A DNA stretch of 63,412 bases from Oscillospiraceae bacterium (GTDB taxonomy: Bacteria; Bacillota; Clostridia; Oscillospirales; Oscillospiraceae). The position numbers and the translations under genes are program-made. Shown here one piece after another: positions 21,656 to 34,888 of this stretch. The notes below the pieces were generated by a model that ran no database searches, was not told where the DNA came from, and was given only the letters and a program-made list of their open reading frames with translations. The DNA lies in the NCBI GenBank assembly GCA_017622295.1, contig JAGARK010000053.1, forward strand, positions 1 to 63,412. The letters are read 5' to 3'. Every line of letters starts with the position of its first letter. Position 1 is the first letter of the stretch.

Positions 21656-23277
21656 CCAAAAATCAGATTTACGAAGCCGAGATCACCGACTACACCTCCG
21701 AAGGTCAGGGCGTTGCCCACATCGAGGGCTGCGCGGTGTTCATCCCCAATGCCATCCGGGGCGAAAAATATCTGGTGCGGATCGAAAAAGCCCAGAAGAC
21801 CTGGGCTGCCGGCAAGATCACCGAGATTCTGGAAAAATCCTCCCACCGGGTGAACCGGGAGTGCCCCGTGGCCAAGCTCTGCGGCGGCTGCGACTTCTGG
21901 CACATGGACTACGAAGAGGAAGCCGACCTGAAAGCCCAGCGGGTCAAAAACTGCCTGAACCGCATAGGCGGCGAAAATCTGGAGGCGGTGCCTATTCTGG
22001 ACGCTCCCACCTGCTATGGCTACCGGAACAAGGCCCAGTACCCTGTGGCCAGCAGGAAGGGCCGGGCCTATGCGGGCTTCTTCCGGGCAGGCACCCACGA
22101 CGTGGTGGAGAACAAGCGCTGCCTGATCCTGCCGGAGGAAACGGACCGGGTGAAGGATGCGGTAATGGATTATGTAAATCAGTTTCGGGTTCCTGCCTAT
22201 GACGAAATCGCCCACACGGGCCTGCTGCGGCATATCTATGTCCGCCGGGGCGCCGTGTCCGGGCAGATTCTGGTGTGTCTGGTGATCAACGGCCGTTCCA
22301 TCCCCAAGGCCCATGAGCTGATTGGCCGCCTGAAAAAGATCCCCGGCTTTACGACGCTGGTGCTGGGCGTAAACACGAAGAAGGGCAACGCCATTCTGGG
22401 GGATGAATTCATCACCCTGTTCGGCCCCGGCTATATTGAGGATACCCTCTGCGGGCTGACCTTCCGGCTGAGCCCCCGGTCCTTCTATCAGGTGAATCAC
22501 CATCAGGCTCAGCGGCTGTATGAGGCCGCGATCGATCAGGCGGAGATCACGAAGGATGACACGGTTCTGGATCTCTACTGCGGCGTCGGCACCATCACGT
22601 TGGCCATGGCCTCCGCCGCGGGCAAGGTCATCGGCGTGGAGGTGATTCCCCAGGCCGTGGAGGATGCCAAAGACAATGCCAAGCGAAACGGCATTGAAAA
22701 CGCCGAATTCTTCTGCGGCGATGCCGGTCAGGCGGCTCTGGAGCTGGAAGCCAAGGGCATCAAGGCGGATGTGGTCGTGGTTGACCCGCCCCGGAAGGGC
22801 TTGAATGCCGACACCATCGAGGCCCTGGCCCGCTTCGCCCCCAGACGGATCGTCTATGTCTCCTGCGATCCCGCGACCCTTGCCCGGGATGTAGCGCTGC
22901 TGAAGGAGCGGGGCTATGTGCTGAAAAACGCCATGGCGGCGGATTTGTTCCCGAGGTGCAGCCATGTGGAATCGGTTGTGACACTGTCCAAACTCGCAGA
23001 CACACATATCGACATTGAAATTGATCCTTTGGAACTGGAAGAAGTTGTAGACCGTGTCCATCCGACTTATCCCGAAATCAAGGAATATGTTCTTGAACAC
23101 TATGGTTTCAAAGTGTCCAGCCTGTATATCGCACAGGTCAAGCAGAAGTGTGGTCTGGATATGCGAGAGAACTACAATCACGCAAAACCTGGCGGCAAAC
23201 CCCAGCCACAGGTATCTCCCGAAAAGGAAGCTGCTATTCGGGATGCACTCCGTTATTATGGAGTAATCACAGAATAA
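21649..23277 (+). CDS. rlmD: 23S rRNA (uracil-C5)-methyltransferase with element-supplied C-terminal tail
   Basis: 542 aa. TRAM domain at about residues 3-60, an Fe-S site CPVAKLCGGC (about 68-77), the SAM fold VLDLYCGVGTITLAMA, VVDPPRKGL and the catalytic-cysteine motif YVSCDPATLARD. The catalytic-base motif CSHVESVV ends at residue 444. From codon 443-446 on the base composition drops and a 100-residue tail unrelated to the catalytic fold follows (IKEYVLEHYGFKVSSLYIAQ..., ending RYYGVITE). The tail is supplied by the integrated element; without the insertion the gene would continue into the bases after 36546 and end TLIREH, giving a normal length of about 450 aa. Catalytic residues are all on the host side, so activity may be retained. 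Confidence 0.92.
   Translation: MLTKNQIYEAEITDYTSEGQGVAHIEGCAVFIPNAIRGEKYLVRIEKAQKTWAAGKITEILEKSSHRVNRECPVAKLCGGCDFWHMDYEEEADLKAQRVKNCLNRIGGENLEAVPILDAPTCYGYRNKAQYPVASRKGRAYAGFFRAGTHDVVENKRCLILPEETDRVKDAVMDYVNQFRVPAYDEIAHTGLLRHIYVRRGAVSGQILVCLVINGRSIPKAHELIGRLKKIPGFTTLVLGVNTKKGNAILGDEFITLFGPGYIEDTLCGLTFRLSPRSFYQVNHHQAQRLYEAAIDQAEITKDDTVLDLYCGVGTITLAMASAAGKVIGVEVIPQAVEDAKDNAKRNGIENAEFFCGDAGQAALELEAKGIKADVVVVDPPRKGLNADTIEALARFAPRRIVYVSCDPATLARDVALLKERGYVLKNAMAADLFPRCSHVESVVTLSKLADTHIDIEIDPLELEEVVDRVHPTYPEIKEYVLEHYGFKVSSLYIAQVKQKCGLDMRENYNHAKPGGKPQPQVSPEKEAAIRDALRYYGVITE
22975..22985 (+). other. attL core candidate
   Basis: GTTGTGACACT in rlmD, in the same codon phase as the right end. The composition changes immediately downstream. 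Large serine recombinases usually exchange at a 2-bp core, so only short identity (GTTGT, then AC and CT) is expected. Confidence 0.7.
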
Positions 23278-23283
23278 TTCTTT

Positions 23284-23314
23284 GTGCTGGTTCAGAAATG
23301 AGCCAGCACTTTTG
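23284..23314 (+). terminator. terminator after the hybrid rlmD
   Basis: GTGCTGG / CCAGCAC (23284-23290 and 23303-23309), with additional TC/GA pairing, followed by TTTTGTTT. It is supplied by the element. Confidence 0.8.
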
Positions 23315-23337
23315 TTTGCTATATGGTTGAACACTAT

Positions 23338-23438
23338 TTTTGATACAACTGATAAATTGTGTATCAAAACACTTGACAAAAAAGAAGTCCTCTGCTATTA
23401 TCTAATTATGATACAAAATGATAATTAAGTATCATAAT
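23338..23438 (+). promoter_or_regulatory. promoter with two GATAC-N14-GTATC operators
   Basis: TTGACA (23373-23378), 17 nt, TATTAT (23396-23401). Upstream lies TTTTGATAC-N14-GTATCAAAA (23338-23369) and downstream ATTATGATAC-N14-GTATCATAAT (23405-23438). Both arms and spacing are perfect and the second is repeated exactly at the recombinase promoter. Confidence 0.85.
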
Positions 23439-23462
23439 TATAATTTAACAAGGAGGACTTAT

Positions 23463-23846
23463 ATGAAAGAAAATTCTGACCTATCCAATCTATTCCCTAC
23501 TTTAACCATTGCCAAAGATCTAGAGGAAGTCTGGCAATACCTGTGCGATGGTAAGTACCTCGTCGGTGCGGATCTCACCCTCTACCGCAGAACCCCTTTC
23601 GTCATGGAAAATGCGTTTTGCTTATCTAACGGGTTTATCCGAATGTTTAAGGTCAAATGGGCTACTGATTCCGTAAAGATCAAACTTTACACAGATCAGT
23701 CTATTGGTCTGGGTGGCGGTTTTACATACGACATTTTTAAGATTATTTTCGGCAACTGGATGGCTGAAAACTTCGACTTTTTCTTTGTTGACGATTTTGG
23801 TTTACTGGACACCAAGGATATTCGCCCTGGCAGAGAGTTTCTTTGA
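23463..23846 (+). CDS. unknown element protein, 127 aa
   Basis: Starts MKENSDLSNLF behind AAGGAGGAC. It has a mixed alpha/beta composition, no signal peptide or membrane helix, and a hydrophobic, aromatic C-terminal half (residues about 87-115, IFKIIFGNWMAENFDFFFVDD). It is not recognised. The promoter, ribosome site and codons 4-7 (Asn-Ser-Asp-Leu) are copied at 34597, so the two genes share control, probably by the GATAC-binding repressor. As the first gene after the left end it may act in element maintenance; this is inference. Confidence 0.7.
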   Translation: MKENSDLSNLFPTLTIAKDLEEVWQYLCDGKYLVGADLTLYRRTPFVMENAFCLSNGFIRMFKVKWATDSVKIKLYTDQSIGLGGGFTYDIFKIIFGNWMAENFDFFFVDDFGLLDTKDIRPGREFL

Positions 23847-23855
23847 TAAAAAATA

Positions 23856-23880
23856 CCGCTGGCTTTTATGCCAGCGGCTT
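23856..23880 (+). terminator. terminator-like hairpin after the 127-aa gene
   Basis: CCGCTGGC / GCCAGCGG with a 6-nt loop, A-run before it. The same CCAGCGGC sequence recurs at 24006-24016. Confidence 0.65.
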
Positions 23881-24108
23881 GAAGTAAAGGTAAGTTCGTT
23901 AAGACTATACTTTCGACTGGGAGAACCCCAGACCTAATCACTGATCTAATTTTACCACAAAGGAAGCCACCAATGCAAGGGATCAAAAATGCCGCCAGCA
24001 ATCCTGCCAGCGGCTATTCCACGAAAGGGGGAATAATCTATGTGAAACGAGCAAAAATACCCACCACTAGAATTATATCCCTTTTATTATCTGAAAGCAA
24101 TAGATCGC
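23881..24108. other. noncoding stretch between convergent element genes
   Basis: No supported gene. It carries a second CCAGC...GCCAGCGGC segment (about 23997-24017) and a lone ribosome-site-like AAAGGGGG at 24025, followed by only a very short frame. Confidence 0.45.
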
Positions 24109-25122
24109 TTATTTGGCAAGGTAATTCTGAACCAACACCCCACTGCGGAAGTGGGATTCCAAACTGACCATCATAACAGCGGTACGGTCAAAGGCATATG
24201 GTAGCCCTTGCTCAATCAAGTGCTGCCTATGGGAACCACGGCAATAGTATGGATGGTCAAGATTTTCTCGTAGCTCTTTGTCCTTGGCTGCAAAGGTATC
24301 ACGGATGATCTGCTGATACTCGGCTCGGGCTTCTGGACGGTTTTCCATATCTTCCACGATCCTGTTATATCGGGATTGAAAAGCTTCTGCTCTTGTTTGG
24401 TGGAAATCCGCATCATTCTTGAATAATTCACGGTCAAAGACATAATCGGTTGGCTCTTTGCCGTCTAACATATCTCGGATCTTTTCTATTTCCTCTGGAT
24501 CTCGGAAAACGGTGGTATTATGCTTGCCGCCCTTTCCGATGGTGTTCATTTCAATTTCATTCCCACGATCCTCAAAATTACTTACACGCAAACGCTGTAA
24601 TTCTGATCGGCGCAGACCTAATGTGCGGTTGGCTTCCAGAGCTTCCCCAGCACGATCCTCATTGTACTTGTCGTGTTGCCTGTCTCCACGGCTCCTGGTA
24701 ATGTCAGCGAGCCTTCTTTCGGGAATGTCATAATCCTGCATCTTGGTTTGAAAAACCTTGCAGAGGGCAGCACAGGTGGTATGGACGGAATAGGCAGACA
24801 GACCTCGATCACGCTGATAATCCAGATAGGTTTGTATCTGATCTCTGGCTTGCTCCATGGTACATTTCTTGTACCCATTCTCAGATAGCCAATCCGCATA
24901 ACGGCTGATTTCTGCCTGATATGTTTTCATTGTGCCATAGGAAAAGACCTTATCGGCAGTGTGGTCAATCCTCATGTATTCTTCTCTCGGCACACCCTGA
25001 GCCTTTAGCTGCTGGCGATCCTGATAGGTTCGTACCTGATCGTCATGCTTGCTATGACCATAGTAAGCCATCTGATTAAGTGCGGATTTCATTTGAAACT
25101 TGATGTTTTGTGCTCGTGCCAT
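24109..25122 (-). CDS. tyrosine-recombinase-like protein (degenerate active site)
   Basis: 337 aa. The N-terminal SAM-like core-binding part (about 55-135, TMKTYQAEISRYADWLSENG) and C-terminal catalytic-like part are recognisable: LGLRRSELQRLRV holds the first arginine (R171), IGKGGKHN the beta-hairpin lysine, CRGSHRQHLIEQG aligns with the second-arginine box and Tyr334 near the end may be the nucleophile. The box-II histidine (H-x2-R) is replaced by Tyr and the LGH motif reads LES-H. Proteins of this kind occur beside relaxases in clostridial elements and may resolve multimers rather than integrate. Ribosome site AAAGGAG. Confidence 0.7.
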   Translation of the reverse strand: MARAQNIKFQMKSALNQMAYYGHSKHDDQVRTYQDRQQLKAQGVPREEYMRIDHTADKVFSYGTMKTYQAEISRYADWLSENGYKKCTMEQARDQIQTYLDYQRDRGLSAYSVHTTCAALCKVFQTKMQDYDIPERRLADITRSRGDRQHDKYNEDRAGEALEANRTLGLRRSELQRLRVSNFEDRGNEIEMNTIGKGGKHNTTVFRDPEEIEKIRDMLDGKEPTDYVFDRELFKNDADFHQTRAEAFQSRYNRIVEDMENRPEARAEYQQIIRDTFAAKDKELRENLDHPYYCRGSHRQHLIEQGLPYAFDRTAVMMVSLESHFRSGVLVQNYLAK

Positions 25123-25266
25123 GTGTTTTCTCTCCTTTCTTCGATGTGTTTTTTAGGAGCGTCCTGCTCCCCATTGTTTAGTTCGGCGGTCGGCTTTGAT
25201 TCAAAGCACAAAGCCTAAAGCATGGGTAATCGCCTTTGCCACGGCGAAAACCTTGGAGAATGTACC

Positions 25267-25303
25267 CGTTAAGTGGTTATACCTGACGGTATAACCCTTA
25301 ACG
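25267..25303. terminator. long perfect-stem hairpin between ArdC-like and recombinase-like genes
   Basis: CGTTAAG...GGTTATACC / GGTATAACC...CTTAACG with a 4-nt loop and a single unpaired base. There is no T-run, so it may stabilise or process the message rather than terminate it. Confidence 0.55.
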
Positions 25304-25327
25304 AGCCGCCGATCCTATGTGTATGGA

Positions 25328-26206
25328 TTAACAATCCACCACTTTCAGATCGGTTAGACTGGTTACCCAGTCTAAGATCCCACGGGCGCACTTTTCAATA
25401 CGGCTAACCGATTGCAAAAGCTCCCGTGTTGTTCTGCTTTCCGACCATCCTGCTAAATACCCCGTTGAATAGCAGATGGTTTGGGGAAACCCCAAAGCAG
25501 AACAGCAAAGATAACTGGCTGCTTCGGCCTCAATTTCCTTGATGCCACGCTCCAATTCCTTTGCATCATCTTCCCCGTGCAGGAGCGAGTGCGCCTGTTC
25601 GTGTAAGATGCAGCGGAAGGTCTGTAAATCGGACATACCTTCCTTGATGTGGATTTCTCCCGTCACAGGGGAGAAAAATCCATTGGCAGAACTGCCAGTC
25701 AGATCGGGATCATACATGATCCGATCCTCGGAATCCATAAGCTGCTGTACCGCTCCGTGCAATTCCTCTGAATTGTCGGTTGGCACTTTCACGATGGAAT
25801 CCAATTCTCCGTCGCATTGGGAAATGTCGAACACATTGCCCAAGCGGAACCGAACGCCATTGATGGTGATGATTTCTTTCTCAATCTCTCCATCTTCGTT
25901 GGTTCGGTTTCTCTCTGCGTGATACTTGTAGGGTATCGGGCAGAGAATCTTGATCGCCTTTTCGCCTTTGCGAACCTGCATTTTCTGCTTCTTCCATGTT
26001 TGGTAGCTTGCCAAACGGGAGATGTTCGGATTCTGGCACCATGCGAGCAAGATGTTGTTGAAGCTGTAATTATGGAATCTACTGAGCATCGTCAGGTATT
26101 CGTGGAACCGCCCGCTTTCAAACATTTCTCGGACAGCGGTTTCCAACTGTTCCATGGCAGCATGAAGCTGATCTTTCCGTACAGCATCGGAAGTGGTTGT
26201 TTTCAT
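25328..26206 (-). CDS. ArdC-like antirestriction protein (ssDNA-binding plus zinc peptidase)
   Basis: 292 aa. Residues about 10-100 form the ArdC N-terminal ssDNA-binding domain (RFHEYLTMLSRFHNYSFNN, LASYQTWKKQKMQVRKGEKAIKIL). The C-terminal half holds a zincin site ILHEQAHSLLHG (H-E-x2-H, about 205-216) with a downstream glutamate EIEAEAASYL. ArdC proteins protect incoming single-stranded plasmid DNA and counter restriction in the recipient. This suggests the element travels by conjugation, helped by another element. The ATG at 26206 follows GAGAGGAA. Confidence 0.88.
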   Translation of the reverse strand: MKTTTSDAVRKDQLHAAMEQLETAVREMFESGRFHEYLTMLSRFHNYSFNNILLAWCQNPNISRLASYQTWKKQKMQVRKGEKAIKILCPIPYKYHAERNRTNEDGEIEKEIITINGVRFRLGNVFDISQCDGELDSIVKVPTDNSEELHGAVQQLMDSEDRIMYDPDLTGSSANGFFSPVTGEIHIKEGMSDLQTFRCILHEQAHSLLHGEDDAKELERGIKEIEAEAASYLCCSALGFPQTICYSTGYLAGWSESRTTRELLQSVSRIEKCARGILDWVTSLTDLKVVDC

Positions 26207-26413
26207 AATCGTTTCCTCTCTTTCGTCGTTGTTCTCATGGAACATGGTTTCTGAATTTTAGGTAACAAAAAACGAGCAGCCGCCTATAGCGATTGCCCGA
26301 ACTTCGGTACTCCTTGTACCCCTTTACTTCAATTTTTCCTTTACTTGTTGCCTGTAAAACAGGATTAAATAACTTACAACCATATTTTACCATTTGGAGA
26401 AAGTAAAAAGCAA
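26207..26413. other. upstream region of the ArdC-like gene
   Basis: About 200 bp without a gene. AGGGGTACaaggaGTACC-type and ACAGG/CCTGT inverted repeats are present; no clear -35/-10 pair stands out. Confidence 0.4.
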
Positions 26414-26442
26414 GGGCTGCCATCGTTCAGACAGCAGCCCTG
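26414..26442 (-). terminator. terminator of the lipoprotein gene
   Basis: GGGCTGC / GCAGCCC stem; on the minus strand it is followed by TTGCTTTTTACTTT. Confidence 0.8.
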
Positions 26443-26454
26443 TGACAGATTCAA

Positions 26455-27600
26455 TTAAGGCATCGGAACTTCGATGAAGGTATAGGTGGAACGAAGCTGA
26501 TTCAGATAGATCGTATCGGCTGCGTTGGTATCGGTATAGTTGCCGTTCAGTTCCACATAGGATTCATTGTAGGTCACGGAACCATCGGGATGAACGGTTA
26601 CATCGGTAAACTTATAGTAGCCGATCACATTTTCCCAAGTTTTGGTGACATTCGCATTTGCAGCCATGTCATACCATTCGTTGGTGGTGATGGTCTTATA
26701 GACAGGCACCAGCAGGAAGCTATACTCCATGTCGATCTGATTGTTGACTGCCAGCAGAGCGGTATCGCCTACATGGATGTTCTCGATGGTTGCTCCCCAA
26801 GGGGTCATGTTGCTGCTGCCATCGTAAATATCAACGCTGCCGCCGTTGGCACATTCCTGATAGGCTCTGTCAGAAATGCGCTGCAGCACATCGTTGGTCA
26901 GATCAGAAGAAGCACTTGCATACCGATCAAAGCCCTCAATGGCAATGGTAGTTTCGGTACGGGTCAGTAGATAACCCTGCTGCTGGAACTTTTCGTCCAT
27001 GGTAGCGGTAATGGTAATAACCTCGCCGTTTTTCAGATTCCAATCCTTGTCTGCCTTATAGGTGATATGACGAATGGGGTCACTCAGATCAGCGTTGTTG
27101 TACAGATACAGACACACAAAAGGATCAATGCCCTCCAAGGTGGCATCCACGATCTTGCCGCTGCCGAAAATATCTTCAGCAAAGGGATCGATTTTGATAG
27201 GCTCAGTCAGACCTTCCACGGTGAACTTCTTTTCCAGACCAGTAAAGGAGTAGCCGTATTCTTTTGCCTTTTCTTCATTCAGAGAGATCTTGACGGTAAT
27301 AGTATCGCCGTTGCTCAGACCTTCGGAAACATCGGCTGCATATGTAATGGTAGTTTCCACGGCAGTCAGTTCGCCCAGCTTTTCCATCTTGTCCTTATCT
27401 TTCCACTGGGACATGATACCATATTCAAAATCGGCAAAATCGAAGTCAATTCGAGGGGTGCCATTTCCGTTGTAGCCAGTGTAGCTGACAGAGAGATACT
27501 GGGACAGTTCGACTTTGGTAGTGCTGCCGCCGCAAGCGGTCAGGCTCAGGCACATTGCGATCACAGTCATGATCAGGAATAGTTTAACAATCTTTTTCAT
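26455..27600 (-). CDS. secreted lipoprotein with repeated beta domains
   Basis: 381 aa. Signal peptide MKKIVKLFLIMTVIAMCLS with lipobox LTAC (Cys about residue 23). The mature part contains two related segments of the type GDTITVKISLNEEKAKEYGYSFTG and GEVITITATMDEKFQQQGY (about 100-125 and 195-215), each followed by EKKFTVEGL / ETTIAIEGF, as in DUF-type clostridial lipoproteins seen in gut anaerobes; the C-terminal third is a separate beta-rich domain. Function is unknown. Its promoter (27660-27685) matches the ECF promoters of the neighbouring NERD and sigma genes. The ATG at 27600 follows AAAGGAG. Confidence 0.82.
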   Translation of the reverse strand: MKKIVKLFLIMTVIAMCLSLTACGGSTTKVELSQYLSVSYTGYNGNGTPRIDFDFADFEYGIMSQWKDKDKMEKLGELTAVETTITYAADVSEGLSNGDTITVKISLNEEKAKEYGYSFTGLEKKFTVEGLTEPIKIDPFAEDIFGSGKIVDATLEGIDPFVCLYLYNNADLSDPIRHITYKADKDWNLKNGEVITITATMDEKFQQQGYLLTRTETTIAIEGFDRYASASSDLTNDVLQRISDRAYQECANGGSVDIYDGSSNMTPWGATIENIHVGDTALLAVNNQIDMEYSFLLVPVYKTITTNEWYDMAANANVTKTWENVIGYYKFTDVTVHPDGSVTYNESYVELNGNYTDTNAADTIYLNQLRSTYTFIEVPMP

Positions 27601-27659
27601 AGTGATAATCTCCTTTGAAATGCATTTTGAGGATTTCTTTTCTCCCCTTGTACCATATA

Positions 27660-27685
27660 GACGAGTGAGCATCTCAGTAGGTTTT
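27660..27685 (-). promoter_or_regulatory. ECF-type promoter of the lipoprotein gene
   Basis: On the minus strand AAAACCT (27679-27685), exactly 15 nt, CGTC (27660-27663), preceded by TTTTTGAAACTAT. CGTC is the classic ECF -10 element. Confidence 0.8.
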
Positions 27686-27712
27686 ATAGTTTCAAAAATA
27701 TTTTGCAATTAT

Positions 27713-29062
27713 TTAGCCAACAATTTTTCGGTATGCAGCCACTGCTTCGGGAAGAGACTGGTAGCTTGCAGAAAGAGGAGTAGGTTTTCCGCTGGGCAGG
27801 GCGATGAAAATATAATTATCCATATCCAGATAAGTGATATTCTCGCCATTGTCGTGGCAAATCAAGACATTCGTTTCTTTGTCGCTGTCGGCGGTAACGC
27901 TTTCCACAGTGGCAACATAGAACTGATCCTTATTTTTCAGCAAACCTTTTTTGCGAAGCATTTTCCGCTCTTCACGCATCATCTCTCGCTGCTGGATCAT
28001 CTGCTTTTGCTCTGCCTGAGAATAATGGGCAATGCTTTCCAGCGCATCGGCAATCTGATCAACTTCTTCTCTGGTGAAGCGTCTTTTATACATATCCACA
28101 ATGTTCAGCTTCTGGTAGGAATCCTTGCCAGTTGCCATACCAAAGAAGAATTCCTTGGGGGTAATGTTGTAGGTCAGATGATCTTCGACCTCACGGGTGG
28201 TAAACAGGACAACATTGATGACATTCCACACGAAAGTAGCCTTATCTTTCAGGGAGCCGTCAGGAAGAACACGGTAAAGATATTCGAGCAAACAGTTGCG
28301 ATGACCATTGTTCTGAACCAGAGGGTTTTCCATCGGATACTCTTCGTTGCCCAGTTTCTGTGTCCATTCCCGATCGGAGATCTTGCCATAGAAGGCACCG
28401 CCTTTTGCCTTGACCTCAATTACATGGATACCAGTTTCATTGACAGAGATAATATCGATTTCATTAAAATTACCGTTGCCCTTTGGGATAAACACACTGT
28501 TCAGAATACGACCGTAAACATTGCTCTTCTTCAAGCACTGCTCTGCTGCCATGGTTGCAATATATTCGCCGTAGATGCCCTTATCTTTTTTGATCTCGGA
28601 AGGACGAATACCTGTGTTCTTCCACCATGCGGATTTCGTAAAGTTCAGATTGTATTGCAGCTTGTCCCAATCTGTAACCATAGGGATGTACCAAAGCACA
28701 ATTAACGCTGCCACAAAAATGGTACCAAACACACCTACCAGAAGCATTTTGATTGCCGCAAAGATTTCCAGAGAGAAAATATGACCGATGGCACTTGCAA
28801 TGCTGCCAAACGGAGTAAACACCAGCATCATGCAAAGAGGAAGCCAGCCCAAGTAGCCGATCATATACATCATAATGCCGCCGCTCAAGCCAATAAAATT
28901 ATTGCTTTTCAGCAGCTTTTTTGACATTTGCCGTCCATCGATCTGCCAGAAACAGTCACGCAGAGAGAGAACAAATAGGGCGATATAATCTGCTACAGTC
29001 AGATTAGGATCAAGATTGGTTTTGAAAGATTGAATCAGTTCTTTCGCATTATACTTTGTCAT
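27713..29062 (-). CDS. membrane-anchored NERD-domain (nuclease-related) protein
   Basis: 449 aa. The N-terminal part has two to three membrane helices (about residues 55-85 and 95-125, with a conserved-looking VLWYIPMVTDWDKL end). The NERD domain (about 155-260) shows GIYGEYIATMAAE, FNEIDIISVNETGIHVIEVKAKGG (E-D-E-x-K nuclease-type core) and LVQNNGHRNCL. A charged coiled coil (about 355-385) and a small C-terminal domain follow. NERD proteins are related to restriction-type nucleases, but cellular roles are unclear. It has its own ECF promoter and lies between the sigma and lipoprotein genes. Ribosome site AAAAGGAG. Confidence 0.85.
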   Translation of the reverse strand: MTKYNAKELIQSFKTNLDPNLTVADYIALFVLSLRDCFWQIDGRQMSKKLLKSNNFIGLSGGIMMYMIGYLGWLPLCMMLVFTPFGSIASAIGHIFSLEIFAAIKMLLVGVFGTIFVAALIVLWYIPMVTDWDKLQYNLNFTKSAWWKNTGIRPSEIKKDKGIYGEYIATMAAEQCLKKSNVYGRILNSVFIPKGNGNFNEIDIISVNETGIHVIEVKAKGGAFYGKISDREWTQKLGNEEYPMENPLVQNNGHRNCLLEYLYRVLPDGSLKDKATFVWNVINVVLFTTREVEDHLTYNITPKEFFFGMATGKDSYQKLNIVDMYKRRFTREEVDQIADALESIAHYSQAEQKQMIQQREMMREERKMLRKKGLLKNKDQFYVATVESVTADSDKETNVLICHDNGENITYLDMDNYIFIALPSGKPTPLSASYQSLPEAVAAYRKIVG

Positions 29063-29112
29063 AGCCGTATATCTCCTTTTTTGGGGGAATTGATTTCCCT
29101 TTCTGAGCTTTA

Positions 29113-29138
29113 GACGATTGTACTTTTTATCAGGTTTT
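29113..29138 (-). promoter_or_regulatory. ECF-type promoter of the NERD gene
   Basis: Minus strand: AAAACCT (29132-29138), 15 nt, CGTC (29113-29116), preceded by TTTTTGAAAATAT. It is nearly identical to the lipoprotein promoter in the upstream half. Confidence 0.8.
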
Positions 29139-29154
29139 ATATTTTCAAAAATTT

Positions 29155-30981
29155 TTATCCACCAAGATAATTCCATTCAATCGGTGCGCCGCCATAGAAC
29201 AGATCGTTGTAAGCATAGACGGCATCGCCATAGATTGCTTCCCCATTGGGCTTGTAGATTACAATGGGTTCTGCATTGCTGGGGCTCACACCCCGACCGA
29301 TGCACAATTCATCCTGTCCGTCACCGTCAATATCCAGATAGGTGTTCCAGATACACATGGTATAGTCACCAGCCTGCCTATGCAGCAGCATCCACATGAC
29401 ACCATCGCCCAAATGACTGTACAAGCCATCGTAGTATTCCATGTTGGAATCGTAGTCCTCCGCAGAAATCATAAGAGCAGCTTGTATATCCGTCAGGATG
29501 GAATCAAAGAAAGGTTCAGAAGCAGGGATCTCAGGAAGATCAAAGGCTTGCCACGGAATATCGGTTACTCTTTCCGCAATGGTGTCAGGTACTTCTTTCA
29601 CGCTGCAACCATCCACTTTTAGATAGGTGTGGCTCGTTTCTGTTGCGCTGCTGCTTCCAGCGAGATAGAGTGTACCATCAGCCAGGAGGGCCAGCATAGA
29701 TCGGTCTCCAAGAGTAGGCTCGTCAATCAGCTGAACTGCCCGTTCGCCGTCAAAGCCATACAGATCCACGAACCTGATATAGTCTTCAGGACCAAAACCG
29801 ATCAGCAGTTCTTCCATGCCGTTTCCATCAATATCCATATAAGCATAATAGAAGTTGTCGCCATGGTACATATGGTAATAACGGATCGCCATATGATCGC
29901 CGTTAAAATAGTTATCGGGGGCATTCAGGAAAGTGGCACTATCAACACCTAACACTGTTTGATATTCAGCAGTAATACCCCGATAGGCTTCCTCTGCTGC
30001 TACGGCGGCAACGGTTTCCACCGTGGTTTCGGGAATGGTGGTTTCCTGTTCAGCGGACAAGGTGGTTTCGCTCTGGGAAATGGTTTCGGTAGACACGATC
30101 TGTTGTGTCGGCTCAGCTTCCTCACGATCATTGGAGGAAAGTGCCAGCATCGTACCGCCGCCGACCACTGACACCGCCAGCACACCAGCTATGATTTTGG
30201 TGGTCAATGCCTTTATCCCTGCACCAGCGGCGGCTTTTGCTCCTGAGCTGGCAGCGGTAGCAGCACCAGCCGATCCAGCAGCGGCGGTGCCTGTTGCGGC
30301 GCACTCTGCGGTAACGGCCTCCAGAACCATGCCAGAGGGTATCTCTGCTGCTTCGGCATCCATACGGAACAGCCAGAGCAGGAACGGCAGAGGTGCCAGA
30401 GAGTAGAGCTTGGTTCCTCTCTTTTCCAGTTCTTTGACCTTGACTTCCACTTTCTTCCGACCGTAGTTCAGTCGGCTCTTGACCGTGTTTTCAGAGCAAC
30501 CCAAGGTTTCTGCAATCTCCCGAACGCTCATTTCTTCGTAGTAGAACATACCGATCACAAGCCGCTGATCCTCGCTCAGAGTAGAAAGGATCTCCTGCAT
30601 CAATCTGGCTGTTTCCTTACGATCAAGGACTTCTTCGGGGCAGTGGTCAAGGCAATCATCCCGAAAGTCGATTTCCTCCCCGTCCTCGTTTGCCATGTCG
30701 GTAAACAGGATGGGCTTTTTCTTTTTCAGATAGTCCTTTGCCTTGTTGGTGGCGATCCGCTTCATCCATGCCCGAAAGTTTTCGGGAGTGTCCAGTTGGT
30801 CAAGGCTCTGGAAGCCCTTGATGAAGCTGTCCTGCACAATATCCAGAACTGTATCTTCATCGGCAATCATGGATTTCACGGTTTTATAAACGCTGCTGTA
30901 TGTAAGCTCGTAAAGCTCAGTAATGGCATCCTGATCACCAGCCGCAGCTTTGCGGATCAGTTTGCCCGTAAATTCGCTCAT
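29155..30981 (-). CDS. ECF sigma factor fused to a transmembrane segment and extracytoplasmic domain
   Basis: 608 aa. Sigma region 2 (about 20-90, with DTVLDIVQDSFIKGFQSL and NFRAWMKRIATNKAKDYL) and region 4 (about 130-185, EDQRLVIGMFYYEEMSVREIAETLGCSENTVKSRL) are intact. A long Ala/Gly-rich stretch leads to one membrane helix (about 262-281), a Thr/Glu-rich linker (285-330), and an external domain with two calcium-loop-like DxDGxGxDEL repeats (about 383 and 550), as in FG-GAP/VCBS-like modules. It would keep the sigma at the membrane until an outside signal, perhaps by proteolysis, frees it. Three matching promoters nearby, one its own, support autoregulation. Confidence 0.88.
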   Translation of the reverse strand: MSEFTGKLIRKAAAGDQDAITELYELTYSSVYKTVKSMIADEDTVLDIVQDSFIKGFQSLDQLDTPENFRAWMKRIATNKAKDYLKKKKPILFTDMANEDGEEIDFRDDCLDHCPEEVLDRKETARLMQEILSTLSEDQRLVIGMFYYEEMSVREIAETLGCSENTVKSRLNYGRKKVEVKVKELEKRGTKLYSLAPLPFLLWLFRMDAEAAEIPSGMVLEAVTAECAATGTAAAGSAGAATAASSGAKAAAGAGIKALTTKIIAGVLAVSVVGGGTMLALSSNDREEAEPTQQIVSTETISQSETTLSAEQETTIPETTVETVAAVAAEEAYRGITAEYQTVLGVDSATFLNAPDNYFNGDHMAIRYYHMYHGDNFYYAYMDIDGNGMEELLIGFGPEDYIRFVDLYGFDGERAVQLIDEPTLGDRSMLALLADGTLYLAGSSSATETSHTYLKVDGCSVKEVPDTIAERVTDIPWQAFDLPEIPASEPFFDSILTDIQAALMISAEDYDSNMEYYDGLYSHLGDGVMWMLLHRQAGDYTMCIWNTYLDIDGDGQDELCIGRGVSPSNAEPIVIYKPNGEAIYGDAVYAYNDLFYGGAPIEWNYLGG

Positions 30982-31166
30982 AGCATTTCCTCTCTTTCTA
31001 GGTGTTCTATAAGAATCTCATATTTGGAATCGGATTGCAAGTTGTCCTCCTCTGCGCTTTTCAGAATTTTCAAAATCTTTTGCAGCAGTTCCGCAGCCAC
31101 ATCGGGAGCTAACTCGTACCGATTCACGATTCTTTGAAAGAGTTCCTTAAAATTTGCATCTTCCAT
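30978..31166 (-). CDS. small helical protein coupled to the sigma gene
   Basis: 62 aa, all-helical and acidic (LLQKILKILKSAEEDN), no membrane helix or cysteine. Its stop overlaps the sigma start (ATGA), and it is first in the sigma transcript, behind GAAAGGAGGAAG. It is not recognised. Translational coupling suggests it acts with, or sets the dose of, the sigma factor; it could also be a short leader peptide gene. Confidence 0.65.
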   Translation of the reverse strand: MEDANFKELFQRIVNRYELAPDVAAELLQKILKILKSAEEDNLQSDSKYEILIEHLEREEML

Positions 31167-31191
31167 AACTCTTCCTCCTTTCTGCTTCCTG

Positions 31192-31217
31192 GACGATCCA
31201 AGACGGCAACAGGTTTT
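31192..31217 (-). promoter_or_regulatory. ECF-type promoter of the sigma operon
   Basis: Minus strand: AAAACCT (31211-31217), 15 nt, CGTC (31192-31195). It has the same boxes and spacing as the promoters at 29113 and 27660, with a divergent spacer sequence, so the match is not simple duplication. Confidence 0.82.
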
Positions 31218-31251
31218 AGAATTACGAAAAAATTTCTAAAATCGTTATTAG

Positions 31252-31288
31252 GCATCATAATGTGATGCAATCGCTATTATATGATAGC
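31252..31288 (+). promoter_or_regulatory. paired palindromes before the XRE gene
   Basis: GCATCA-taatg-TGATGC (31252-31268) and GCTAT-tatatg-ATAGC (31273-31288) lie 57-93 bp before the XRE start, within the divergent region to the sigma operon. They are candidate operators for autoregulation. Confidence 0.5.
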
Positions 31289-31344
31289 ATAAAATGCCGT
31301 AGAATAACAGTACTTTGATCAAAAAAAGAAAGGGAGGGGCCGCT

Positions 31345-31689
31345 ATGACCAACGATATTGATTACAGCCAGCTCGGCAAGCGGATCAAGCGGTATCGTCA
31401 AAAGGCGCATAAAACCCAAGAGCAGCTTGCCTTTGAAATGGATATTGCGACCTCTACCATCGCCCATGCAGAAAACGGCACGAGCAAGCCCAGCTTGCCA
31501 CTGCTTCTGAAAGTAGCCAATGCCTTGAATGTGACTTTGGATCAGTTGGTATGTGACAGCTTGCCCGTGATCGATACCTATATCGAAAAGGATATTGCCG
31601 ATCTGCTTTCGGATTGTACAACCACAGAAAAGCAGATCCTTCGGGACATTATCGCCGTCACCAAGGAAACAATGAGAAAACACAGATAA
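31345..31689 (+). CDS. XRE-family helix-turn-helix regulator
   Basis: 114 aa. The HTH_3 domain occupies about residues 10-65 (LGKRIKRYRQKAHKTQEQLAFEMDIATSTIAHAENGTSKPSLPLLLKVANAL, cut here by normal family features), with a short helical C-terminus that may dimerise. It is likely the element's repressor; the palindromes upstream and the GATAC-N14-GTATC sites at 23338 and 34472 are possible targets. The ATG at 31345 follows AAGAAAGGGAGG. It is divergent from the sigma operon. Confidence 0.85.
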   Translation: MTNDIDYSQLGKRIKRYRQKAHKTQEQLAFEMDIATSTIAHAENGTSKPSLPLLLKVANALNVTLDQLVCDSLPVIDTYIEKDIADLLSDCTTTEKQILRDIIAVTKETMRKHR

Positions 31690-31699
31690 AACGCCAAAT

Positions 31700-31737
31700 G
31701 AGCTTGCAGAGAATGATCCTCCGCAAGCTCATATTTT
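31700..31737 (+). terminator. terminator of the XRE gene
   Basis: GAGCTTGC / GCAAGCTC (31700-31707, 31723-31730) followed by ATATTTTTTA. Confidence 0.8.
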
Positions 31738-31932
31738 TTACTTCCATTTTTCTTCGTCATTTTGCACTAGGAAATCAAAAAATTATTCGATTTATAACAC
31801 TTACAGTGTCATAACTTTAAGGAAATAGAGCAAAATATTGTGCGTTTTGACGGTCACTTCGGCAGGATTGTTTTTATTTGCTTCGGAGGTAGAATTGGTC
31901 GTTGGAGGAAATAAAAAACATTGTGCGGAAAT

Positions 31933-32223
31933 TTATCTTACAGTAGATTGATGATAGGAAATGCAAGTAATGCGAACATCGGAATAATCAGGATCGTCCT
32001 GATCAAGGTTTTCGATGCCGAAGCTCAATTCAACTTCTGTGTTGTTTCGGTCAAAGAGGAACACGCTTCCTCCGAATACCCATTCCTTAAATTCGTTGAA
32101 AGAGACATGATCGTGCCAGTCCTCCCCTAAAGCATCATAGAGATCGGACAAACACCATGTTTGGTTTTCTTCCAGAATCAGACCGTTATGTAGCTTTACA
32201 ATTTTATCATAAGGTTTCTTCAT
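31933..32223 (-). CDS. unknown small acidic protein (96 aa)
   Basis: Contains a predicted alpha/beta fold with DLYDALGEDWHDHVSFNEFKEWVFGG and an acidic DQDDPDYSD stretch, no membrane helix. It is not recognised. AAAGGAG precedes the ATG. It is the last gene of a minus-strand set starting at 33163. The 195 bp after it (31738-31932) hold no supported gene. Confidence 0.65.
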   Translation of the reverse strand: MKKPYDKIVKLHNGLILEENQTWCLSDLYDALGEDWHDHVSFNEFKEWVFGGSVFLFDRNNTEVELSFGIENLDQDDPDYSDVRITCISYHQSTVR

Positions 32224-32246
32224 TGTGTTTTTCTCCTTTCTTCGTT

Positions 32247-32528
32247 TTATAGTTCAGTTGCCAGATTATCCCAAAAGCGTTTCAAATCAGCAAACTTGGG
32301 ATCATCCAATAGATCCTCGCAGCCAGCTTCCAATATTGCTTGGAAAGCTCTGCAATCAGATACAGTGTAGGCTTTGTATTCGACTCCGTCACTGTCTATC
32401 AAAACATATTCGCCAGAACGGAGCCTTGTAATGCCCCTGTGATAGGGGCTATTACCGTGATCCAGATTTTCGTTGTATGATACGATACCAACGATGCGAC
32501 CAAAATCGTCATGCACATATAGCTTCAT
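32247..32528 (-). CDS. unknown small protein (93 aa)
   Basis: Begins MKLYVHDDFGRIVGIVSYNENLDHG, then LRSGEYVLIDSDGVEYKAYTVSDCRAF, a short beta-rich part followed by two helices. It is acidic with no motif recognised. It starts 2 nt after the preceding 210-aa gene's stop, so the genes are cotranscribed and probably coupled. Confidence 0.65.
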   Translation of the reverse strand: MKLYVHDDFGRIVGIVSYNENLDHGNSPYHRGITRLRSGEYVLIDSDGVEYKAYTVSDCRAFQAILEAGCEDLLDDPKFADLKRFWDNLATEL

Positions 32529-32530
32529 GG

Positions 32531-33163
32531 TTACATTCCTCCTTCCTGATGGTATACTTCGGATTCCATTGCAGCTATGGCTTGCATTTCGTCATCAGAT
32601 GGAATGTCCTCCATGTATGGTGGAGCATCTTCGCAGGATGCTTGATTTTCCTTATTTTTCTTATTTTTGCGGCTATTGTTACTCTTAATATTATTCACTA
32701 ATTTGGTGTGTTCTCTTAACTCCCAATTATAGATCTGATTGTAGGTGGTAACGACTTGTGTACCATTTACACTATCAATGATAACTAGGAATTTATTTTC
32801 CAATAGGATGTTGTACCATTCCTCTATCTTTGCGATTGGAATATTGGAATCAGCACTAATATCTCTGATTGTTTTGCGTAAATCACGACCTAGCTTAATG
32901 CCATAGCCAATTCCGATTGTCATGTATAGGCGAAGCACACAAAGGAAGCCAAGCATTTCAAATCCATACTTCGCCACAAAATCCCATTCTTCATCAGTTG
33001 ACATAAAATTCTGTTGAACTGTAAAGTATTCCAATGGGTTGCCTATATATTCTTCTCCAGCCTTTGTTTTAGCTGGTTTGTATTTCTCAAGCATTATATC
33101 GATGTAGTGATCAGGCAAATGCTTTTGTTGTCTAGGTTCTTCTATTTCTATTGTTTTCTTCAT
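32531..33163 (-). CDS. putative replication/DUF4373-like winged-helix protein
   Basis: 210 aa. Residues about 40-130 (NPLEYFTVQQNFMSTDEEWDFVAKYG, LGRDLRKTIRDISADSNI, VEEWYNILLENKFLVI-type pattern) resemble the N-terminal winged-helix domain found in Lin1244/DUF4373 and phage or plasmid replication-initiation proteins. A basic Asn/Lys-rich linker (about 155-175) and acidic tail follow. The call is from fold-like pattern only. The iteron-like array at 33378-33432, just upstream, fits a replication or regulatory role. Confidence 0.5.
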   Translation of the reverse strand: MKKTIEIEEPRQQKHLPDHYIDIMLEKYKPAKTKAGEEYIGNPLEYFTVQQNFMSTDEEWDFVAKYGFEMLGFLCVLRLYMTIGIGYGIKLGRDLRKTIRDISADSNIPIAKIEEWYNILLENKFLVIIDSVNGTQVVTTYNQIYNWELREHTKLVNNIKSNNSRKNKKNKENQASCEDAPPYMEDIPSDDEMQAIAAMESEVYHQEGGM

Positions 33164-33497
33164 AGTCTTATTATCTCCTTTACTTTTTATTCTTAGCTCT
33201 AGGTGATCTATTCTTAGGAATACACCCTGACAAGGACAACCACAGTTGCAAACACAGTGGCAAAAATATTTACAGCAGCCTATACAATGAAAACAGCAAA
33301 CACATAGCCATATTCATATAAAGATAAAAATACAACTGCAAATCCATAGTCATATTCATATTACAAATACAAGCATCACCGATATGTTACCGTAACATCA
33401 CCGTAACATCACCGTGACATGACCGTTACGCTTCATATCAGGCAAAAAGAAAAGCTCTACTACCCCATAGCGAGGTAATAGAGCTTGTTTTCTTTGC
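33164..33497. other. noncoding region with tandem repeats
   Basis: A 330-bp AT-rich region between two minus-strand genes. It contains two copies of CATA(G)(T/C)CATATTCATAT (near 33303 and 33343), CACAGTTGC/CACAGTGGC repeats and the 11-bp array described separately. No coding frame is supported. It may be an origin, a transfer origin, or a promoter region of the 210-aa gene. Confidence 0.55.
33378..33432 (+). repeat. five tandem 11-bp iteron-like repeats
   Basis: Units ACCGATATGTT, ACCGTAACATC, ACCGTAACATC, ACCGTGACATG, ACCGTTACGCT follow one another without gaps, each beginning ACCG. The 11-bp period matches about one helical turn, as in protein-binding iterons. Confidence 0.8.
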
Positions 33498-34397
33498 TTA
33501 TCTTGCTTTTCGTCTGCGCTCAGTCAGTGCCAACTTAACACGCTTTATATCCAGAACGGAAAGCAGATCATACTTCTTGCAAACATCATTCTCTGTGATC
33601 TGCCCCTGTTCCAGAGCATCCATATCACGGAGATATTCTTCCTTTTCGGGGAGGGGGCCTCTTTTTGCCACCTCTGCAATCTGGAAGTAGAAAATCTTTA
33701 GATGTTCGCCGTAGTACAATGTGCTTTCATAAGCCTGCGAATATTTGTAGAAAGTTCTGTGGGTAACACCAAGATCCTGCTTGCAAACATCGACAGCAAC
33801 TTCGGCTCGCTGCCATTTCCAATAGATTTCCAAGAAACGGTCAATGAGCTGGGGTTCGGGTCTGTGAATCAGACGGTCCAGTTCCGATACGACCTTGCCA
33901 ATAGCGGATTGAGTAGCTATGTGCATGGCAAGCTGTTTTGCTTCGGTTTCCAGATTGGAGAAGTCAAGATCTCCTGTAATGTTCTTGAAAGAGAAATACT
34001 CGTTGTCCAAGAATACATAGTTCTTGTTGTTCTCCGCAAGGGTGGTAATTGCATGGATCAGATGCTCCATGCCCTCTGCTGCCACAATATCGTGGATGGA
34101 TCGGATGTAGATCGTTCCCTGATAGGGAGCCTGACACAGAAGCTCCAATGTCTTGTTGACGGCAACTTTGCCGCTGAGAGGATCAGGAGCATTGCGCCAC
34201 AGGATGATGATATTGATATTGTCATTGAACTCCATGGGGAACTCCTGCCCGTTGTCCTGGCAATAGGTTCTCATGGCACTTCTAAATTCTTCGCAAACAT
34301 GATTGCTGATCTCCTCATAGGTCAAGGAAGAATCAAAGCTGGTATAGTCAGCGCTGGTCACACCAAAGGTGCGCATGAACGGATTGAATATAAACAT
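33498..34397 (-). CDS. resolvase-like protein lacking the catalytic serine
   Basis: 299 aa. The middle (about 85-170) has the layout of a serine-resolvase catalytic domain (GTIYIRSIHDIVAAEGMEHLIHAI then a long helix) and residues about 195-225 resemble its HTH (WQRAEVAVDVCKQDLGVTHRTFYKYSQ). The N-terminus lacks the Y-x-R-x-S motif, so it cannot cleave DNA as a normal resolvase. The resemblance is weak and could be chance. It is divergent from the recombinase promoter. The ATG at 34397 follows GAGGTG; the GTG three codons upstream is less likely. Confidence 0.5.
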   Translation of the reverse strand: MFIFNPFMRTFGVTSADYTSFDSSLTYEEISNHVCEEFRSAMRTYCQDNGQEFPMEFNDNINIIILWRNAPDPLSGKVAVNKTLELLCQAPYQGTIYIRSIHDIVAAEGMEHLIHAITTLAENNKNYVFLDNEYFSFKNITGDLDFSNLETEAKQLAMHIATQSAIGKVVSELDRLIHRPEPQLIDRFLEIYWKWQRAEVAVDVCKQDLGVTHRTFYKYSQAYESTLYYGEHLKIFYFQIAEVAKRGPLPEKEEYLRDMDALEQGQITENDVCKKYDLLSVLDIKRVKLALTERRRKAR

Positions 34398-34471
34398 AGT
34401 ATTCACCTCGCTTGATCATATTTTATCCCACAAAAACGCTTTTGTCAATATTTCTACCAAAATAATTTGTA

Positions 34472-34572
34472 TTTTGATACGATTATAAAAATATATGCAA
34501 AAACCTATTGACAAATCCAAAAGTTCTGATATTATAGAATTATGATACGGATTTGAAAAACTGTATCATAAT
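34472..34572 (+). promoter_or_regulatory. promoter and operator of the recombinase operon
   Basis: TTGACA (34508-34513), 16 nt, TATTAT (34530-34535). Downstream is ATTATGATAC-N14-GTATCATAAT (34539-34572), identical in arms and spacing to 23405-23438. Upstream at 34472 TTTTGATAC is kept, but the second half-site has decayed. Confidence 0.85.
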
Positions 34573-34596
34573 AAAAATAATTAAGGAGGACAATTT

Positions 34597-34845
34597 ATGA
34601 CTACCAATTCTGACCTAGGAGGTTCCGAACTAAATGCTAACCTAACTGCTACTACTAAGCCTTACATCACTGGATGTAATGATAAATATAAGACAGTTAC
34701 CGTTGTGAATACTTTAGCAAGCCTGATGCTGAAATATCAAGCAGAACTAGAGCTTGCTATTGATAGCCTAACCTCTGGTAGAAATGCGGAAAGCATTTCT
34801 ACTCGGCGAATCTTTAGGCAGCAACTTATTTATATAGCGGCTTGA
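34597..34845 (+). CDS. unknown small element protein (82 aa)
   Basis: MTTNSDLGGSELNANL, Thr/Asn-rich at the start, with a helical C-terminal part (LASLMLKYQAELELAIDSL). It is not recognised. The promoter, ribosome site and codons 4-7 (Asn-Ser-Asp-Leu) equal those of the gene at 23463. It precedes the recombinase by 43 nt in the same transcript; a role as directionality factor is possible from place and size, but there is no sequence support. Confidence 0.6.
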   Translation: MTTNSDLGGSELNANLTATTKPYITGCNDKYKTVTVVNTLASLMLKYQAELELAIDSLTSGRNAESISTRRIFRQQLIYIAA

Positions 34846-34888
34846 AAATAAGCGCACAATATTATAGAATCTAAGGAGAATAAAGCAA

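Follow-up and report, generated by a model that had tools for sequence, protein, structure and literature searches.

The stretch of DNA analysed here (the window) comprises positions 1 to 63,412 of contig JAGARK010000053.1 from an Oscillospiraceae bacterium (assembly GCA_017622295.1). Within what looks like an integrated element, it carries a gene for an extracytoplasmic function (ECF) sigma factor predicted to be fused to a membrane helix and an exported domain, together with a small upstream gene, two downstream genes and three copies of a promoter-like pattern, AAAACCT-N15-CGTC. The features of this module, in the order in which the genes are read, are:

31192..31217, minus strand: ECF-type promoter 1 (AAAACCT-N15-CGTC), before the operon of the 62-amino-acid (aa) gene and sigma
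30978..31166, minus strand: small gene of 62 aa, its stop codon overlapping the start of sigma (ATGA)
29155..30981, minus strand: 608-aa ECF sigma, with regions 2 and 4, a conserved juxtamembrane motif, a transmembrane (TM) segment and an exported part
29113..29138, minus strand: ECF-type promoter 2, 16 nt past the sigma stop and before the NERD gene
27713..29062, minus strand: 449-aa NERD protein (PF08378, E 2.9e-19), a candidate target
27660..27685, minus strand: ECF-type promoter 3, 27 nt past the NERD stop and before the lipoprotein gene
26455..27600, minus strand: 381-aa putative lipoprotein (signal peptide with LTAC lipobox, by eye), a candidate target
26413..26441, minus strand: terminator-like stem-loop with a T tail, after the lipoprotein gene

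An earlier reading made from the sequence alone (the sequence-only reading) had placed the pattern before the 62-aa/sigma, NERD and lipoprotein genes, and the counts bear this out: exact matches number three in the window, where 0.04 are expected, and all lie on the minus strand; none of 100 shuffled windows contained three. The end of CGTC lies 25, 50 and 59 nt from the ATG of the 62-aa, NERD and lipoprotein genes, respectively, and the geometry of the boxes is that of the classical ECF type. The spacer sequences of the three promoters differ. Upstream of the -35 box, about 20 bp are common to the NERD and lipoprotein promoters, TTTTTGAAA[A/C]TATAAAACCT (27680-27705 and 29130-29160), suggesting that one may have been copied from the other.

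When the window's own assembly (1.99 Mb in 80 contigs, 75.55% complete) was scanned, as had been proposed with that reading, one further exact copy was found, inside a long open frame and outside the window (4 matches in total, versus 2 for a reversed control). A relaxed pattern, RAAACCK-N15-CGTY, matched 6 times, versus 10 for its reversed control, and the shortened AACCT-N15-CGTC was near background (29 versus 24). The three sites outside the element, exact and relaxed together, all fell inside long open frames of coding length, and a chromosome-wide regulon was rejected on these grounds.

The sigma protein has, of the sigma-70 regions, only 2 and 4: it matched Sigma70_r2 (PF04542, E 6e-12) and Sigma70_r4_2 (PF08281, E 6e-15), and scored 105.7 bits against the sigma70-ECF profile TIGR02937 (cut-off 42.9). 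Regions 2 and 4 occupy approximately residues 1-182 and are followed by the juxtamembrane motif GTKLYSLAPLPFLLWLFR at 189-206, an Ala/Gly-rich linker, a TM segment from residue 263, which is the only hydrophobic segment of the protein, and an exported part at about 290-608; a lysine before the helix and acidic residues after it point to an N-in topology. The exported part had been described as holding two DxDGxGxDEL loops; the second, DIDGDGQDEL at 550, is exact, whereas the first, DIDGNGMEEL at 383, has E for D. Pfam names no part of this exported region, and the extension as a whole has 4 cysteines in 426 residues. Matches to the exported part occurred in 7 of 299 other family genomes and were partial only; by eye, the matching proteins are lipoproteins, S-layer-type proteins, M56/BlaR1-type receptors and a zinc-ribbon TM protein. 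Two frames resembling M56/BlaR1-type receptors (L129 and L130; here and below, L numbers designate loci and G numbers genomes) hold part of the window's exported domain type.

Relatives of the sigma were sought in a genome contig collection (15 loci), in 250 family genomes and, with a stricter cut-off, in 394 order genomes; 19 other genomes were matched in the family scan and 7 others in the order scan, and the named relatives are Lachnospiraceae and other Clostridia. The panel of 46 relatives used below consisted of 14 of the 15 contig-collection loci, 24 loci from the family scan and 8 new loci from the order scan. L056 (no sigma start, at a contig edge) and L057 (the window itself) were left out, L107-L114 were read as the larger L115-L122, L077 was read as L124, and L065 as L123. 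A TM segment follows region 4 in 44 of the 47 proteins, window included; the three without it are L054 and L059, which are cut by contig ends, and L048, a short frame. Judged from these sequences, the fusion of sigma, TM helix and exported part, first noticed in the window, is real and a trait of the family.

By eye, the exported parts of the relatives vary widely, being leucine-rich, immunoglobulin (Ig)-like, RCC1-like or of other types. Genome G648 encodes three sigma paralogues (L115, L116 and L117), with exported parts resembling BspA-type leucine-rich repeats. A zinc-ribbon-like CxxC...CxxC arrangement is present at the N-terminus of L042-L047, L050-L054, L060 and L061, and is missing from the window sigma. 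The L048 protein (L048:5917-6672) is a 251-aa frame without a TM segment and with two sites downstream; it represents either a natural soluble form or a frameshift.

AACC-N16-CGTY was present in 17 of the 46 relatives within the 450 nt preceding the sigma match, compared with a mean of 0.42 and a maximum of 2 in 100 shuffles; the antisense control gave 2 and the reversed pattern 0. This fits the autoregulated AAC/CGT-type promoter of ECF sigma factors. Spacings from 10 to 23 were tested, and 16 returned the 17 loci, whereas each of the 13 others returned 0 to 2. The search for homologous modules thus yielded relatives with the sigma-TM fusion, 17 of them with a site before their own sigma (self-site), and the earlier argument that kept boxes and distance with differing spacers indicate function is upheld by the conservation of the boxes at a single spacing in the relatives of one clade. 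All 17 self-sites, together with the window, fall in a 29-row clade (SH-like approximate likelihood ratio test, SH-aLRT, 98), where they account for 17 of 28 relatives; outside the clade, self-sites were found in 0 of 18. A chance origin of the sites was ruled out by the shuffles of the window and of the relatives' upstream regions. G062, G635 and G385 also have the exact window form, and in G062 two of the five matches to AAACCT-N15-CGTC lie at the sigma. The TGCAACC-N15-TCGTT form was sought in five relatives: G128 (a single contig) and G013 each have a single copy, located at the sigma operon, and it is absent from the remaining three. The more distant relatives L062 and L063 (G015 and G135) share AAAACTT-N15-TGTC upstream of sigma, which is perhaps a third promoter variant.

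The letters of the boxes were compared with the region-4 helix in the 18 site-bearing sigmas, window included. Boxes of the form [AG]AAACC/CGTC go with the helix E[NG]T[VI]KSRL[NS]Y at 6 of 6 loci (window included), and [GA]CAACC/CGTT boxes go with E[SN]AVKSRL[MLF]Y at 12 of 12. This agreement fits, but does not prove, a direct reading of the boxes by the sigma, and it supports the view that the boxes behave as promoters of the membrane-fused sigma.

Sites were also sought downstream in 33 stretches, which began 60 nt ahead of the sigma stop and reached no more than 2.5 kb beyond it; some of the stretches were short (L083, 59 nt; L043, 917; L050, 1401; L117, 2067) and some share a genome (three from G648, two from G217). 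Seventeen same-strand sites were present in 13 of the 33 stretches, with 1 antisense site and 1 match to the reversed pattern. Eight of the 17 lie 16-57 nt past the sigma stop (L044, with two overlapping sites, L046, L048, L049, L051, L052 and L082), a placement like that of promoter 2 in the window, and seven precede proteins judged by eye to be exported or membrane-bound from a signal peptide, lipobox or membrane segment (L042, the second site of L048, L051, both sites of L052, the first of L115, and L117); in L045 and L054, an exported or membrane gene, again by eye, stands behind a site elsewhere in the locus. Among proteins behind sites, Pfam recognised a transglutaminase core (L048) and LRR_5 (L054); it gave no family at E 0.01 for the proteins of L117 and L045, and low-complexity matches only for that of L042. 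No gene was called behind the L044 sites, and the genes behind those of L046, L049 and L082 encode no clear signal peptide.

The overlap between the stop of the 62-aa gene and the start of sigma suggests that their translation is coupled. In 15 of the 17 site-bearing relatives, a small open reading frame (ORF; 40-67 aa) separates the site from sigma; the ORF is broken in L043 and was not found in L122. The 62-aa protein has no Pfam family above cut-off and is only 14-39% identical to the small proteins of the relatives, so that their common descent rests on position and pattern. The sequence-only reading had held that the module lacks a usual anti-sigma, and Pfam indeed gave no hit to a zinc-finger anti-sigma (ZAS) segment in the sigma up to E 0.1; the absence of a regulator partner does not follow, since the small gene could encode one, and its product may be a partner of sigma.

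The NERD protein has two hydrophobic segments, from residues 63 and 106, and the EID...EVK residues in its NERD domain are, we presume, those expected of a nuclease-type fold (the catalytic reading). The 381-aa lipoprotein has no Pfam family above cut-off. The description of the module as three separate transcription units was too strong: no terminator-like stem was found in the same-strand gaps between the module genes, in a weak scan that found 6 stems versus 4.8 in shuffles, and the three promoters may give nested transcripts.

Three further features describe the setting of the module:

22980..36550, no strand: integrated element, approximate extent, at the 3' end of a gene read as rumA/RlmD-like
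34889..36562, plus strand: large serine recombinase (Pfam search), at the right end of the element
31342..31689, plus strand: divergent helix-turn-helix (HTH) regulator of the Cro/CI type (PF01381, E 1.2e-15)

The element, about 13.6 kb, appears to carry the 62-aa/sigma, NERD and lipoprotein genes; its left end was placed where homology to seven congener loci stops, and its right end was deduced from the C-terminus of the recombinase. Its GC content is about 0.40-0.49, and that of the flanks mostly 0.52-0.62. The left flank was matched in 18 of 21 genus genomes (own genome included), and in all seven congener loci compared the rumA/RlmD-like homology ends at 22970-22991; the right flank was matched by none of the seven within the DNA compared, and an empty site with both flanks was not seen. 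The last codons of the recombinase, ESVVTLIREH, resemble ESVVTLS, the end of the rumA-like part at the left boundary, suggesting insertion in the rumA-like gene. At L139 (G661) there is a second short match, at 23104-23187, to the element-side extension of the rumA-like gene, which makes this site a possible hot spot for insertion. Among the other proteins of the element, one (25328-26245) has an ArdC-type anti-restriction domain at its N-terminus and another (24109-25122) is weakly tyrosine-integrase-like. At 31252-31268, in the control region that the sigma operon shares with the divergent HTH gene, a palindrome, GCATCA-N5-TGATGC, may act as an operator for the HTH protein.

That the element is an already described phage or plasmid was rejected, since it had no megablast match in phage and plasmid collections. 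No phage or plasmid record covered 80% of the sigma; the records listed (the best 20 of 59 and the best 20 of 77) match the sigma part, and scans of viral contigs confirmed no relative. A known defence system was likewise set aside, PADLOC giving partial hits only. An unverified faecal 'phage' scaffold, MT837799.1, encodes a member of the wider family in a 508-aa frame (L150:1878-3404), whose product has a TM segment followed by an exported portion with DxDG; AACC-N16-CGTY is absent from both strands of the scaffold.

We consider it probable that the module is a self-contained, autoregulated local ECF regulon with a membrane-fused sigma, borne by an integrated element, and most likely that such a local regulon is a trait of the sigma's clade. 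The sigma would be one polypeptide in which cytoplasmic regions 2 and 4 are joined through a juxtamembrane segment and one TM helix to an exported part. It would guide RNA polymerase to AAAACCT-N15-CGTC and so drive its own operon, comprising a small, probably helical protein and sigma, as well as the membrane-anchored NERD protein and the lipoprotein through the copies 16 and 27 nt past the preceding stop. The exported part presumably senses something outside; the sigma would stay inactive at the membrane until proteolysis sets it free, a mechanism demonstrated for IutY and suggested for SCO4117, or until a conformational change passing through the juxtamembrane segment, and perhaps the small protein, releases it. 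The output of the regulon may remodel or protect the cell surface.

The boxes might instead serve a different regulator as operators, for example the divergent HTH protein, with the sigma reading something else. The HTH gene does diverge from the sigma operon with a palindrome between them, but this palindrome lies outside the boxes and was seen in neither the NERD nor the lipoprotein promoter. The letters of the boxes accord with the recognition helix and the clade of the sigma, and the neighbour of the operon in G062 is a frame read as LysR-like, not this HTH gene; we regard this explanation as very improbable. A constitutive sigma-promoter system, in which the membrane part is a leftover or serves for localisation only and nothing is sensed, would account for exported parts that look mutually unrelated and for the 251-aa L048 frame, which has downstream sites in spite of lacking a TM segment. 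Against it, 44 of 47 proteins retain the TM segment, with two of the three exceptions cut by contig ends, the exported parts are long as well as varied, and the BlaR1/M56-type receptor-like frames of L129 and L130 share part of the exported domain of the window sigma; we hold a constitutive system to be unlikely. It is also conceivable, if doubtful, that the small upstream protein sets the activity of sigma as a soluble anti-sigma or co-factor, the exported part being secondary; such a role is favoured by the small ORF that recurs ahead of sigma in 15 of the 17 relatives with a self-site, and by the stop/start overlap in the window, while the 14-39% identity, the want of a family above cut-off and the broken small gene in one member of the close pair L042/L043 speak against it.

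Several observations weigh against the local, autoregulated regulon. By AACC-N16-CGTY, 11 of the 28 clade relatives have no self-site; five of these have a site after the sigma gene (L044, L048, L049, L051 and L115) and L045 has one elsewhere in the locus, but L120 and L077 (L124) have only sites without a convincing gene, and L065 (L123), L116 and L118 have no site at all. Five downstream sites lack a convincing gene (L047, the first of L048, the second of L115, L120 and L124), and the L117 self-site is 122 nt before the small gene, farther than in the others. The exact window form occurs in none of the 15 contig-collection loci, which have the GCAACC/CGTT variant or none, and across ten relatives AAACCT-N15-CGTC is not enriched genome-wide (33 versus 79 for the reversed pattern), so that the regulon would not be chromosome-wide there either. 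On the tree, the joint change of box and helix is one event, and therefore counts as one concordant comparison and not as 18; moreover L062, L063, L115 and L116 have the ENTVKSRLN helix and no AACC-N16-CGTY self-site. A NERD homologue was found in none of the 299 other family genomes, and the order gave domain-level matches only (7 of 393 other genomes); in the family and order genomes searched for NERD, the trio of NERD, lipoprotein and sigma was not found elsewhere. The AlphaFold2 model of the sigma is too poor for use (mean predicted local distance difference test score, pLDDT, 39.7).

The chances seem to us about evenly balanced that the module belongs to a widespread, undescribed class of Clostridia systems, in which a conserved chassis of sigma, juxtamembrane segment and TM helix would take interchangeable exported sensors, have a small partner, and switch on both itself and neighbouring surface proteins from its own promoters, and which would here travel on an integrative element as a portable surface-response module. 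The module would allow a direct test of the way in which silencing and release work when a sigma is joined to a membrane receptor, and would show that mobile DNA can bring its own sensing-to-surface circuit instead of borrowing the host's. The likely promoter, known to the base in two variants with matching helices, would lend itself to orthogonal sigma/promoter pairs and to a chimeric receptor assay.

Like the window module, the SigI/RsgI systems of Clostridia combine variable exported sensor domains on a single helix with an autoregulated sigma that directs surface proteins; unlike it, they divide the sensor (an anti-sigma) and the sigma between two proteins, and the sigma is not of the ECF type. 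The literature searched, mostly at title level, contained no account of the window sigma family or of such a circuit on a mobile element. The claim that a module of this kind is undescribed accordingly stands for the family and its mobile version in that literature, and falls for membrane-spanning ECF sigma factors as such: in the parts of PMC8999054 that concern fused regulators, ECF48, ECF52, ECF53 and IutY are all described as sigma factors with fused membrane parts.

IutY (ECF243) of Pseudomonas putida, like the window sigma, unites sigma and a membrane-bound regulator in one polypeptide; its sigma is released by proteolysis, and in the same parts of that source it is the only one for which proteolytic activation is shown experimentally (PMC8999054). 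The part fused in IutY is the anti-sigma of an iron cell-surface-signalling system (PMC8999054), and none such was recognised in the window. ECF262 (SFB89493.1, Ruminococcus albus) and ECF288 (WP_018594055.1, Blautia producta), entered under 'Others' in Table 2 of PMC8999054 with regulatory extensions, are ECF groups with Clostridia as example organisms; the titles searched added nothing on either beyond that source. One of these two groups, compared by description only, may contain the window sigma family, although the ECF288 extension is described as cysteine-rich (PMC8999054) and that of the window sigma has 4 cysteines in 426 residues.

A likeness in layout, as far as those descriptions go, is also seen with the actinobacterial groups ECF52 (SCO4117) and ECF48/ECF53, which have a C-terminal extension with one or two TM helices; SCO4117 shares with the window an extracytoplasmic domain, and its activation by proteolysis has been proposed (PMC8999054). 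These groups carry a zinc-finger anti-sigma-like part (PMC8999054), of which none was found in the window sigma. The window module further differs from them in its lineage, in the small gene upstream of sigma, in its local set of promoters and in its apparent location on an integrated element.

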